From assembly GCA_024743175.1 (NCBI GenBank), contig JANSXA010000002.1:558001-622000 (forward strand): DNA of 64,000 nucleotides. Reading direction: 5' to 3'. Below are positions 31,288 through 34,907 of the stretch, one piece after another. Within the stretch, counting starts at the first letter, position 1, and the number at the start of each line of letters is the position of its first letter. The stretch is from Pseudomonadaceae bacterium (lineage in GTDB: Bacteria > Pseudomonadota > Gammaproteobacteria > Pseudomonadales > Azotimanducaceae). The position numbers and the translations under genes were made by a program. Under the pieces are notes generated by a model, which made no database searches, was not told where the DNA came from, and saw nothing but the letters and a program-made list of their open reading frames with translations.

Positions 31288-32829
31288 TCAGGCCGGGAAC
31301 AACCTGCGCAGGTGCGCCTGAGGCAAAGGCTGTGTCAGTTTGGATACAACCACGGTCACCAGCACCGAAACCACCTCTCCCATGGCTGCACACGACCAGG
31401 GGTTAGGTGCCTCTATACGTAACCAGATGGCCATATTCTGTAAGGTGCCGGGTTCAAACCATTCCGGTTTGATCATGGCATTGAAGGTGATGATAAACAC
31501 CAGACCCCCGGCTAACAAACCGGCAAACGCACCCGATTTCGTAACCCCTTTCCACACTGCACCCAGAATCAGCGGTCCGGCAAACGCCGCCATCATGCAG
31601 CCCGTGCCCACCCAGACAATGATGGTCACGTTCATATCAAGCATTGACCAGGCAAGAGCCGTACACAGCACCATGACGACCACTGTACTGATCCGACTGA
31701 TCTTCAATACACGCGCTTCCAGCTCTGCTTCACTCAAATGCGCACGAAAGCGTGGCACAAACGTCAGACGATAAAGATCATTGGCAATGATCTGCGAGGA
31801 AGACACCACCAGGCCATCAGCGGTGGACATGACCGCTGCAAGAATACCTACACCCAGCAGGGCCGCCAGCCAGCTCGGAAACAACTCGATAAACAGCAGC
31901 GCCAGGGCCTGATTGCCGTTGACACCTTCGCCCAGAATGACGCGCGCCATGATACCGCCCAGGCCCAGCATGCCGAGGATCAGGCCAAAGGTAAAAGCCA
32001 GGCGAATGAACGTTTTCCGTTGTTCGGGCGCTTTTAACGCCCACAGTTTATTGCCGATGTGAGGCAGCATACCCAGCGGAATATGGGCCAATAGAACTGC
32101 CAGAACTGACCACCAGGAATGGTAGAGCACGTCATTTTTGTTGAGCCAGCTCACCAGGTTCTCATCTTTGGCACGCAGCTGATCCAACATGCCGGTAAAG
32201 CCGCCCTCAATACCATAGCCAAGCAGAAACAGGACCATTACCAGCAGGCCGACAAGGACCATTATAAAACCCTGCACGCCGTCGGTGAGGATATCCGCAT
32301 GCGCCCCGCCCAGCACTACGTAAGCCATCAGTACCAGGGCTGTGACCCCCAGCGCAACCGACGGCGGCAGACCTAACATGATTTCAAACATGACAATGCC
32401 GGAAACAAGCTGTCCAGCCAGGTAGAAAAACAGGGACAGCGAAAACAGCGAGACCAGAATCCGGATCAGATCAGACTGATAACGAATACCCAGATACTCG
32501 GGTATTGAACGACTGCCAAATTCATGTCCGCTGCTGCTGACCAGACGCAAACACAACAGCACACCAAGATAGACCCCTATGGGATAAAGAAAAACCGACC
32601 AGATCACCGCCATGCCTGCGTTGTAACCTATACCGGGGAAGCCGACGAAGGTGGCGCCACTGGCAGTGGTGGCAGCAAAGGCAAAAGCGAGAAAAACCGG
32701 TCCATAAGCATTTCGCGCCGTAGCGAAATCGTCAGCATTGCTGACTTTACGCTGTCCCAGCAATCCAAACGCCAGCATCATGGCAATATAAACTGCCAGA
32801 AAAATCCAAGACCAAACTGTAAGATCCAC
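31288..32829 (-). CDS. sodium:solute symporter family protein
   Basis: 513 residues with about thirteen membrane segments. It has the SSS family patterns: FAFAATTASGATFVGFPGIGY (sodium site region), YVVLGGAHADILTDGVQGFI, and AAVMSTADGLVVSSSQIIANDLYR. These couple sodium influx to uptake of organic acids, sugars, proline or similar. The gene converges on the APC permease with 14 bases between stops. Substrate unknown. Confidence 0.87.
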   Translation of the reverse strand: MDLTVWSWIFLAVYIAMMLAFGLLGQRKVSNADDFATARNAYGPVFLAFAFAATTASGATFVGFPGIGYNAGMAVIWSVFLYPIGVYLGVLLCLRLVSSSGHEFGSRSIPEYLGIRYQSDLIRILVSLFSLSLFFYLAGQLVSGIVMFEIMLGLPPSVALGVTALVLMAYVVLGGAHADILTDGVQGFIMVLVGLLVMVLFLLGYGIEGGFTGMLDQLRAKDENLVSWLNKNDVLYHSWWSVLAVLLAHIPLGMLPHIGNKLWALKAPEQRKTFIRLAFTFGLILGMLGLGGIMARVILGEGVNGNQALALLFIELFPSWLAALLGVGILAAVMSTADGLVVSSSQIIANDLYRLTFVPRFRAHLSEAELEARVLKISRISTVVVMVLCTALAWSMLDMNVTIIVWVGTGCMMAAFAGPLILGAVWKGVTKSGAFAGLLAGGLVFIITFNAMIKPEWFEPGTLQNMAIWLRIEAPNPWSCAAMGEVVSVLVTVVVSKLTQPLPQAHLRRLFPA

Positions 32830-32922: not shown

Positions 32923-34029
32923 TCAGAACAAGGGCATTTGCGCATTACCGGGCTGCAGTGGCGGCACAAACAGATCTGTCCTTAGCCGAGGCAGGCCTGC
33001 ATCTGACAGACCATTGCGCTTGAGCGCAATATTGAACCGTTGAGCAATCAACTCCGCTACCGGCCCGGAGCCAGTCATGCGCTGGTACCACTGCGCTGAG
33101 TAAGCTTTGCCACCGCGTGTATCTCTGATGGTCTGCATCACCCGCTTCGCTTTCAGCGGGTAATGGTGGGACAGCCACTGTTCAAACAAGGGGGCTACTT
33201 CATGTGGCAGACGGATCAGAATGTATTGCACGGTTCCGGCGCCAGCTTGTGCACAGCGACCGACCATGGGTTCCAGTTCGTGATCGTTCAGGAAAGGGAT
33301 CACCGGCGCTATCATCGCGCCTGTTGGCACCTTTGCCTCAGCCAGCGCTGACAATACGCGTAGACGTGCGGCCGGGCTTGCGGTCCGCGGCTCAAGCTTT
33401 GTCTTCAGCTTATTGTCCAGCGTTGTCACACTTAAATACACATGCACAAGATCCTGTTCTGCCAGCGCCTGCAAGATATCCAGATCACGCAGAATCAAAG
33501 CGCTTTTGGTAACGATGGTGACCGGATGATGACACTCCAGCAGCACCTGTAGAATCTCACGCATGATCTTCCGCTCGCGCTCCAGCGGTTGATATGGGTC
33601 GGTATTGGTGCCAATTGCAATCGGCCGACAGGTGTATCGTCGATGGCCCAGCTCCTCCTGCAGATGCGCACGCACATCGGTTTTGTAGAACAGCCTGGTT
33701 TCAAAATCTAACCCGGGAGACAGGTCGAGGTAGGCGTGTGTAGGCCGCGCAAAACAGTACACACAGCCATGCTCGCAACCTTTGTACGGGTTGATAGACT
33801 GATCGAAACCGATATCCGGTGAACTGTTTTTTGTGATCAGATGTACGGTGCGATCGGGCAGCACCTCGGTGGCTAATCGCGTTGGCACCTCTTGCGCAAA
33901 CCAGCCATCAGCCACCGCAACTGTCTGCAGCGGCAGAAAGCGGCTATCGGCGTTGCCCGCCGCGCCTCTGCCTTTTAACGGTGTATCTGGTATTGGTGCA
34001 TCTGGTATCGAGACGTCTGGTATTGGCAC
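32923..34029 (-). CDS. PA0069-type radical SAM protein (SplB-like)
   Basis: 368 residues. The radical SAM cluster ligands are C85, C89 and C92 in GCEHGCVYCFARP, followed by ETRLFYKTDV, AIGTNTDPYQPLER and VTIVTKSALILRD, all typical of the group related to spore photoproduct lyase (COG1533, often labelled DNA repair photolyase). The LKGRG and DGWF segments before the cluster match PA0069-type proteins. No substrate is proven for this group. The start is a GTG. The N-terminus carries an unusual IPD-type repeat. A LexA box lies in the promoter immediately upstream, suggesting SOS induction and a role in DNA damage. Confidence 0.87.
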   Translation of the reverse strand: MPIPDVSIPDAPIPDTPLKGRGAAGNADSRFLPLQTVAVADGWFAQEVPTRLATEVLPDRTVHLITKNSSPDIGFDQSINPYKGCEHGCVYCFARPTHAYLDLSPGLDFETRLFYKTDVRAHLQEELGHRRYTCRPIAIGTNTDPYQPLERERKIMREILQVLLECHHPVTIVTKSALILRDLDILQALAEQDLVHVYLSVTTLDNKLKTKLEPRTASPAARLRVLSALAEAKVPTGAMIAPVIPFLNDHELEPMVGRCAQAGAGTVQYILIRLPHEVAPLFEQWLSHHYPLKAKRVMQTIRDTRGGKAYSAQWYQRMTGSGPVAELIAQRFNIALKRNGLSDAGLPRLRTDLFVPPLQPGNAQMPLF

Positions 34030-34059: not shown

Positions 34060-34088
34060 TTTATAACTGTATGTATATACAGTATCAA
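34060..34088 (-). promoter_or_regulatory. sigma70-type promoter of the radical SAM gene
   Basis: Read on the minus strand, TTGATA (34088-34083) and TATAAA (34065-34060) are separated by exactly 17 bases, an almost consensus housekeeping promoter. Transcription would start near 34053, giving a leader of about 24 bases before the GTG at 34029. I see no strong ribosome binding site in that leader. The 17-base spacer is filled by the LexA box described separately. Confidence 0.75.
34067..34082. promoter_or_regulatory. LexA (SOS) box
   Basis: CTGTATGTATATACAG matches the gammaproteobacterial LexA consensus CTGTATATATATACAG at 15 of 16 positions, with both CTGT and ACAG ends intact. It lies precisely between the -35 and -10 elements of the minus-strand promoter, where bound LexA would block RNA polymerase. 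It is 38 bases from the radical SAM start and 52 bases from the start of the divergent retropepsin-like gene, so control of the latter is possible but less directly supported. Confidence 0.88.
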
Positions 34089-34133: not shown

Positions 34134-34907
34134 ATGAAAATATCCATGCGCCTAAGTTGCGTTGCCCTGCTTGTCCTGTTCTCCGGTTGCGCGCAGGTGG
34201 CGCAGCAATCAACAGTAGACCAGCTGCGTCTGGAACTGGCTCAGATCCAGCACAGCCTGGACGATTCTGGCACCCAGGCCACCGCTCTGTTCAGCGAACA
34301 GTCCCTGAACACAAAAAATCTCAGTGATCAGCTGACTACCCTTGAAGAGTCTGTTGCGCAACTGGATAAGACTGTCAGCACTGCATGTCCTGAAAAAGCT
34401 GAGCGGGTTGTCGTGCAGCGCTGCGATCCAGTTAACACCACATCCGTGGTGGTGGCCGCTGAAGGAAAAATGATGCTGGGCGAAGTGGAACGTGTATGGG
34501 TCGATCCACCCGGACTGCAGATGATCGCGCGCATCGACACCGGCGCCAGCACCAGTTCATTACACGCTGACAATATCACCGCGTTCGAGCGAGACGGCGA
34601 TGACTGGGTCCGATTTGATATCAACAATTCTGATAAAGAAAGCGTCACTATCGAGCAGCAGGTGACCAAATATGTGCGGGTCTTTCAACAGGCTGATAAA
34701 AGCGGGTCGCGACGACCGGTGGTTGACCTGCGCCTGGTGCTCGGTGACGTGCGTGACACTTTCAGCTTCACCCTTGCTGATCGCAGCCATCTGGAACAGG
34801 ACATGATCCTGGGTCGCAACTTCCTCACAGACATGGCGCTTGTCGACGTCAGCAAACAGTACGTGCAACCACCCTTCAAACCCGTTGCCGCAGCAGCGCA
34901 GCAGTAA
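34134..34907 (+). CDS. lipoprotein with retropepsin-like (ATP-dependent zinc protease-labelled) domain
   Basis: 257 residues. A lipoprotein signal puts the lipidated Cys at residue 19 (LFSGC), then about 60 residues of coiled coil (DQLRLELAQIQHSL onward), then a domain with ARIDTGASTSSLHADNI (D135) and LGRNFLTDMALVDV. Databases call this family a putative ATP-dependent zinc protease, but the DTGAS motif and beta pattern fit a retropepsin-like aspartic protease, and no HExxH is seen. It starts a three-gene operon: the next gene follows after 3 bases. The ATG at 34134, with GGAG ahead, is preferred over earlier in-frame codons because the signal peptide starts there. Confidence 0.8.
   Translation: MKISMRLSCVALLVLFSGCAQVAQQSTVDQLRLELAQIQHSLDDSGTQATALFSEQSLNTKNLSDQLTTLEESVAQLDKTVSTACPEKAERVVVQRCDPVNTTSVVVAAEGKMMLGEVERVWVDPPGLQMIARIDTGASTSSLHADNITAFERDGDDWVRFDINNSDKESVTIEQQVTKYVRVFQQADKSGSRRPVVDLRLVLGDVRDTFSFTLADRSHLEQDMILGRNFLTDMALVDVSKQYVQPPFKPVAAAAQQ

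Follow-up and report, generated by a model that had tools for sequence, protein, structure and literature searches.

A near-consensus LexA box in the probable promoter of a PA0069-family radical SAM gene, and the boxes found upstream of its proteobacterial relatives

The DNA analysed here is a single stretch of 64 kb, which is referred to as the window. On its minus strand, it carries a gene for a radical SAM protein which is flanked downstream by a sodium:solute symporter gene and upstream by a divergently oriented gene cluster. In this cluster, a retropepsin-like gene is accompanied by genes for a 7TM/inactive transglutaminase protein and a RimK-related ATP-grasp protein. The coordinates of the relevant features are listed in Table 1. 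The preliminary description, which was made from the sequence alone, had called the radical SAM gene PA0069-type. This is borne out by a score of 470.7 bits against the NCBIfam model NF033668 (a hypothetical equivalog with a curated cut-off of 360), the match extending over positions 1-348 of 348 and thus being full-length. The runner-up model is NF038135 (Rv2578c family radical SAM protein) with 224 bits, which is under that model's cut-off of 430 bits. The protein from the window differs from the PA0069 family at its N-terminus, where IPD repeats extend it ahead of the conserved core.

Table 1. Features of the radical SAM locus (positions refer to the window)
Feature	Position	Strand	Remarks
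Sodium:solute symporter gene	31288..32829	-	Downstream of the radical SAM gene and on the same strand; 93-base gap
PA0069-family radical SAM protein	32923..34029	-	368 aa, GTG start; NF033668, PF04055
15-base tandem repeat, 3.1 copies	33980..34026	-	Codes for N-terminal IPD repeats ahead of the family's conserved KGRG start
Probable -10 hexamer TATAAA (5/6)	34060..34065	-	17-base spacer; identical in L270, TAGTGT in L061
LexA (SOS) box CTGTATATACATACAG	34067..34082	-	15/16 to palindromic consensus; kept upstream of relatives
Probable -35 hexamer TTGATA (5/6)	34083..34088	-	Identical in L270, TTGAAC in L061
Divergent gene with lipoprotein-like start (by eye) and retropepsin-like domain	34134..34907	+	PF05618; RloA-type models below their cut-offs

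The intergenic region between the radical SAM gene and the divergent gene carries the 16-mer CTGTATATACATACAG, read on the minus strand. Its claimed agreement with the SOS consensus CTGTATATATATACAG was confirmed by re-reading that strand. No other 16-mer in the 64-kb window has 13 or more matches to this consensus. When 200 windows were simulated with a first-order Markov model, a mean of 0.085 sites per window was obtained at a level of at least 13 matches and none at a level of at least 14. With a loose IUPAC pattern, allowing for one mismatch, 20 sites were found in the window compared to 13.9 expected, and 11 of 100 shuffles reached 20, which is not significant on its own. Because chance yields almost as many sites, this loose-pattern search was dropped as uninformative, and the weight of the site thus rests on its near-perfect match.

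The genome from which the window originates uses the same motif elsewhere. When the 4.72-Mb assembly was scanned for CTGTNTN6ACAG, 33 forward and 33 reverse matches were obtained, as compared to 15 and 17 for a backwards control. Boxes with 13/16 matches each were found before lexA (two boxes, 20 bases apart), recA, and imuA, so that the site in the window fits the motif found before the genome's own members of the LexA regulon. Among the matches listed from the scan are four places scoring 15/16, the site in the window included.

Some of the other boxes in this assembly have features of their own. The imuA box (L034; G000 C7:152000-155000) ends 7 bases ahead of the imuA start; another sequence resembling a box, CTGG-N8-ACAG, is located about 30 bases farther upstream. 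Two contig-end repeats (L024 and L025; G000 C7:1-227 and C15:1-226), which are 95.6% identical, each have a 15/16 LexA-type box at position 205, apparently upstream of a frame that leaves the contig (read by hand). A search of the genome against itself retrieved these two copies only, and they perhaps represent a repeated SOS-boxed element. A 15/16 LexA-type box is also found at G000 C14:345460 (L030), where it is flanked by a divergent frame of 78 aa and by a gene that, by eye, resembles pdxA.

The box in the window is embedded in a probable promoter. On the minus strand, the hexamer TTGATA is followed by the box, a single T, and the hexamer TATAAA, the promoter consensus hexamers being TTGACA (-35) and TATAAT (-10). 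The spacer of 17 bases is filled by the box, the edge of which is 38 positions from the GTG start codon, in full accordance with the preliminary description. A promoter scan missed the predicted promoter because it requires a T at the last position of the -10 hexamer. As to the conservation of this arrangement, which had also been raised, the result is mixed. It is retained exactly (TTGATA - box - T - TATAAA) in L270, the protein of which is 61% identical, and in a partial version in L061. It is not a general feature of the 73 boxed loci, over which the -10 match averages 1.75/6 at the offset seen in the window, the two adjacent offsets having 2.48 and 1.82. The corresponding mean for the -35 hexamer is 1.97, slightly above most neighbours. 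A general rule that the box fills the promoter spacer finds no support in these loci, as there is no -10 peak, and in the order to which the genome belongs, the box is often closer to the start codon than in the window. To judge from these alignments, the spacer-filling arrangement looks local.

The upstream regions of related genes were searched for LexA boxes in several sets of genomes. Family members above the cut-off were found in 36 of 145 genomes from the order, in 89 of 274 from the class, and in 111 of 299 from the phylum; named genomes were represented by the best 80 of 588 candidates. The same criteria were applied to all sets, covering some 300 bases on the upstream side of the conserved core. 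As a gamma-type box, we accepted a 16-mer that starts with CTG, ends with CAG, and has 11/16 or more matches, the threshold having been fixed after the site lists had been inspected. An alpha-type box had to be an exact GTTC-N7-GTTC, whatever its orientation. Some species may be present in both the unnamed and the named sets. Mononucleotide shuffles gave means between 0.02 and 0.74 per set.

In the order, a gamma-type box was found in 32 of 36 loci including that from the window, and thus in 31 of 35 relatives. Shuffles of this set gave a mean of 0.12, and other windows of the same loci had a box in 1/360 cases. Matches below the family cut-off were dropped from this set, so that L080, with a 14/16 box, is outside the count. 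In three of the four loci missed, near-boxes were recognized by eye: L061 and L068 have 12/16 matches with one end base changed, and L079 has a CTGT-ACAG palindrome with 10/16 matches. None was seen in L060.

Other classes of the phylum have the alpha-type box in 57 of 64 loci and the gamma-type box in none (shuffle mean 0.59; 0/402 in other windows), 64 of 74 genomes being covered. Further loci from the same class have a gamma-type box in 6 of 10 cases, 10 of 13 new genomes being covered. The gamma-type site of L347 (11/16 at -272) is probably due to chance. Within the named set (best 80 of 588), 26 loci have a gamma-type and 43 an alpha-type box (one of them has both), and 12 have neither. 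All 11 loci titled Pseudomonas in this set, none of them from P. aeruginosa, have the box; other named loci with a gamma-type box are from Marinobacter, Marinomonas, and Microbulbifer. The named loci with an alpha-type box include Rhizobium, Bradyrhizobium, Azospirillum, and Yoonia. Neither type was found in the loci from Stenotrophomonas, Lysobacter, Luteimonas, and Methylomonas. An alpha-type box is also found on pSymB of S. meliloti, the record of which assigns the gene to the PA0069 family. A box in the promoters of homologues, which the preliminary description had proposed to look for, is thus present within the order and in other classes alike, in the type of the respective lineage.

A broad sample of the class gave a different picture. 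It comprised 85 of 91 loci; G205, G316, and G151 were dropped for being fragments or lying at a contig edge, whereas G000, G020, and G036 had been counted with the order. A gamma-type box was found in 11 of these loci, an alpha-type box in one, and neither in 73. Locus L104 has what we take to be a perfect xanthomonad-type box. A lexA match was obtained in 65 of the 80 genomes tested (80 of 85), 60 of them above the model's cut-off. The absence of lexA would account for only part of the boxless loci. Of 30 lexA promoters that were read, 9 have the CTGT motif, and in 4 of these 9 genomes the radical SAM gene has it too; in four others, the motif precedes the radical SAM gene and is missing from the lexA stretch that was read. 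A quick protein tree with 144 rows requires the box state to change no fewer than 18 times, and L231, a member of the class with a gamma-type box, is placed in the alpha-box clade with modest support. Overall, judged by the boxes, SOS control looks near-universal in this order and patchy in the rest of the class, while it is common in those other classes that were sampled. Within the order, the mutasome gene imuA was detected in 26 of 36 genomes with the family and in 51 of 109 without it (Fisher p 0.012; E up to 3e-29); this was counted by hand and is uncorrected for kinship, so that we give it little weight.

The neighbours of the radical SAM gene vary by lineage (carbonic anhydrase, rnhB, rloAB plus symporter), and the box remains with the radical SAM gene. 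Among 117 loci searched, a homologue of the symporter was found only in the window's own locus, L270, and L272. In L272 and L274, too, homologues of rloA-rloB occupy the divergent upstream position. Of the 11 Pseudomonas loci, 9 have a carbonic anhydrase gene downstream, 8 a DUF2387 gene upstream, and 8 another upstream gene which we take to be prlC-like. In 28 of the 80 named loci (best 80 of 588; e.g., L309 and L337), rnhB (RNase HII, PF01351) is located downstream; in 21 of these loci, the rnhB match starts less than 400 bases from that of the radical SAM protein. A gene for a CcrM-type DNA methylase is found in 9 of the 28 rnhB loci. It is possible that rnhB and the methylase gene represent a DNA-maintenance neighbourhood in the named alphaproteobacterial loci.

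The protein family itself is well conserved. An alignment was made from 79 proteins, chosen at less than 62% identity out of 191, all of which match NF033668. The three cysteines of the cluster motif Cx3Cx2C (C85-x3-C89-x2-C92) are invariant in 79/79 proteins, as are 34 further positions. A search of solved structures with the single sequence gave two chance matches only (E 0.44 and 0.99); with a profile, stretches of SkfB (1.9e-5) and NifB were matched. No match was obtained in a defence-system library, and a PHROGs search gave one family of unknown function. Phage records gave 8 partial matches with 25-33% identity. Matches were found in 30 plasmid records; 15 alphaproteobacterial replicons are listed, and the tally also includes one record each from Legionella, Aeromonas, and Streptomyces.

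The preliminary description had placed the protein in a group related to spore photoproduct lyase (SPL). Distant homology was indeed detected: hhalign gave 88.8% (E 2.5e-6, 108 columns) against a proteobacterial SPL and 95.5% (E 1.6e-8) against two SPL-type sequences, both being rough single-pair E-values. According to passages of PMC3742179, SPL requires a fourth cysteine, C141 in B. subtilis, along with Y99 and Y97. No fourth conserved cysteine was found in the 79 aligned sequences, the next best cysteine column having 37/79. The position following the third cluster cysteine, which is Tyr (Y99) in SPL, is Phe in 48/79 and Tyr in 31/79. By eye, GTNTDPYQP aligns with CYTDPLG from SPL, with T/A/I at the place of C141, an assignment to which the profile alignment gives no firm support. 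The protein from the window is unmatched by the SPL model PF20903 at E 0.001, its only hit being PF04055; a proteobacterial SPL scores 272 bits with PF20903. Another SPL model, TIGR04070, matches 10/79 members, and a MoaA model more than twice as many (23/79). Nor does SPL appear, up to E 10, among the solved chains matched by the profile. One of 120 genomes searched (G436, proteobacterial) carries two PF20903 SPL-type genes (L350, L351) in addition to a PA0069-family gene. The relationship to SPL thus stands as a distant one, and taken together with the missing fourth cysteine and the more frequent MoaA matches, SOS control hints at a damage-related role and not at SPL chemistry. Elsewhere in the genome from which the window originates, an FAD photolyase domain gave two clear matches and a marginal one.

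The radical SAM gene is very likely induced by DNA damage, since its LexA site is near-perfect and its relatives carry the box of their own lineage. SOS control as initially proposed is further supported by the motif at lexA, recA, and imuA, and based on these sequence comparisons, we are highly confident of it. Sitting on the box between the two promoter hexamers, LexA would block RNA polymerase. DNA damage would activate RecA, leading to self-cleavage of LexA and synthesis of the radical SAM enzyme. With the help of a [4Fe-4S] cluster, the enzyme most likely generates a 5'-deoxyadenosyl radical from SAM, and this radical would act on a nucleic-acid or nucleotide substrate related to damage. 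A cysteine-tyrosine radical relay of the SPL type is not expected because the required cysteine has no conserved counterpart. We assign a probability of roughly 0.7 to this reading as a whole, that of a predicted LexA-repressed SOS gene whose enzyme would act on damage-related nucleic acid or nucleotides without the radical relay of SPL.

We consider it extremely improbable that the box is a chance AT-rich palindrome or the site of another regulator. The loose pattern is indeed common in the window, and most loci of the class sample lack both box types, but the match is near-perfect and lineage-matched boxes occur in far more relatives than shuffles yield. The start of the divergent gene at 34134 is 51 bases from the box, so that shared control is possible, and since LexA boxes are palindromic, the box might even chiefly control this RloA-type gene, the radical SAM gene being merely on its other side. 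The divergent rloA-rloB homologues in L272 and L274 fit this. However, rloA was found only in these two loci and in the window (117 loci, flanks of 1.5 to 3 kb), whereas the box is present in most loci of the order and in all Pseudomonas loci of the named set, which makes this explanation most unlikely. A true SPL-type enzyme repairing thymine dimers is suggested by the published name splB and the photolyase or repair label (passages of PMC3323433 and PMC8565304) and is in line with the hhalign results. It is nevertheless improbable in view of the failure of PF20903, the lack of a conserved counterpart of C141, the preponderance of MoaA over TIGR04070 matches, the solved-chain search, and the coexistence of both gene types in G436. 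For the PA0069 family, both splB as a gene name and the designation 'photolyase' may be incorrect.

The alternative that we take most seriously accepts SOS regulation and assigns the enzyme an RNA, peptide, or metabolite substrate, such as a stress-time change of tRNA or a cofactor, instead of DNA lesions. Radical SAM enzymes act mostly on substrates of these kinds, SOS regulons also contain non-repair genes, and some family members have weak model similarity to MoaA and peptide maturases. Against this, SOS boxes of different types are found in different classes, and rnhB and the DNA methylase gene are frequent neighbours in named alphaproteobacteria. We regard a substrate other than DNA lesions as a realistic prospect, though short of even odds. 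For DNA damage itself as the substrate, which is deduced from regulation and gene neighbourhood alone, we see the odds as about even. Only tentatively do we suggest a more specific scenario, which we consider doubtful: the PA0069 family would represent widespread SOS-induced proteobacterial enzymes that reverse or process a DNA lesion by non-SPL chemistry, a light-independent direct repair held by LexA via lineage-specific boxes. A literature search retrieved no such route of light-independent direct repair. As to the preferred reading, that of an SOS enzyme acting on damage-related nucleic acid or nucleotides, the conservation of SOS control across differing LexA motifs gives a strong clue to what this widespread family of radical SAM enzymes does, and suggests damaged nucleic acid as its substrate. 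At the same time, caution against presuming SPL chemistry is in order.

PA0069 has reportedly been listed as a LexA target in P. aeruginosa (by Cirz and coworkers in 2006), and we take it to belong to COG1533. Literature searches for PA0069 together with LexA, and for Rv2578c together with DNA damage, retrieved no paper. About 15 LexA genes of P. aeruginosa are described in PMC13114513, PA0069 being unnamed in the passages covered. The relevant part of PMC6546240 has PA0069 in a microarray group that also contains PA0669 and PA0670, which is weak evidence. Passages of PMC3765255 describe SplB-like genes in operons with genes for ImuB-C domain proteins.

The PA0069 family shares with SPL (PF20903 / TIGR04070) the Cx3Cx2C motif and a distant profile similarity and differs in that the fourth cysteine of SPL has no conserved counterpart. 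The closest parallel in regulation is with the SOS-regulated genes named splB, which are treated as photolyase or repair genes in the passages covered of PMC3323433 (alpha- and betaproteobacteria) and PMC8565304 (COG1533 in Bacteroidetes). In both cases, a SplB-like radical SAM gene is under a LexA box, as for the PA0069 family here. In our samples, the PA0069-family genes from other classes and from named alphaproteobacteria have GTTC-N7-GTTC. The parallel applies provided that the splB genes of PMC3323433 belong to the same subfamily. As far as these passages go, LexA sites before splB were not observed in the gammaproteobacteria of that study, whereas the box of the PA0069 family is found here throughout most of a gammaproteobacterial order. 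The link between this radical SAM family and the SOS response thus extends published work to gammaproteobacteria and is not of a new kind.
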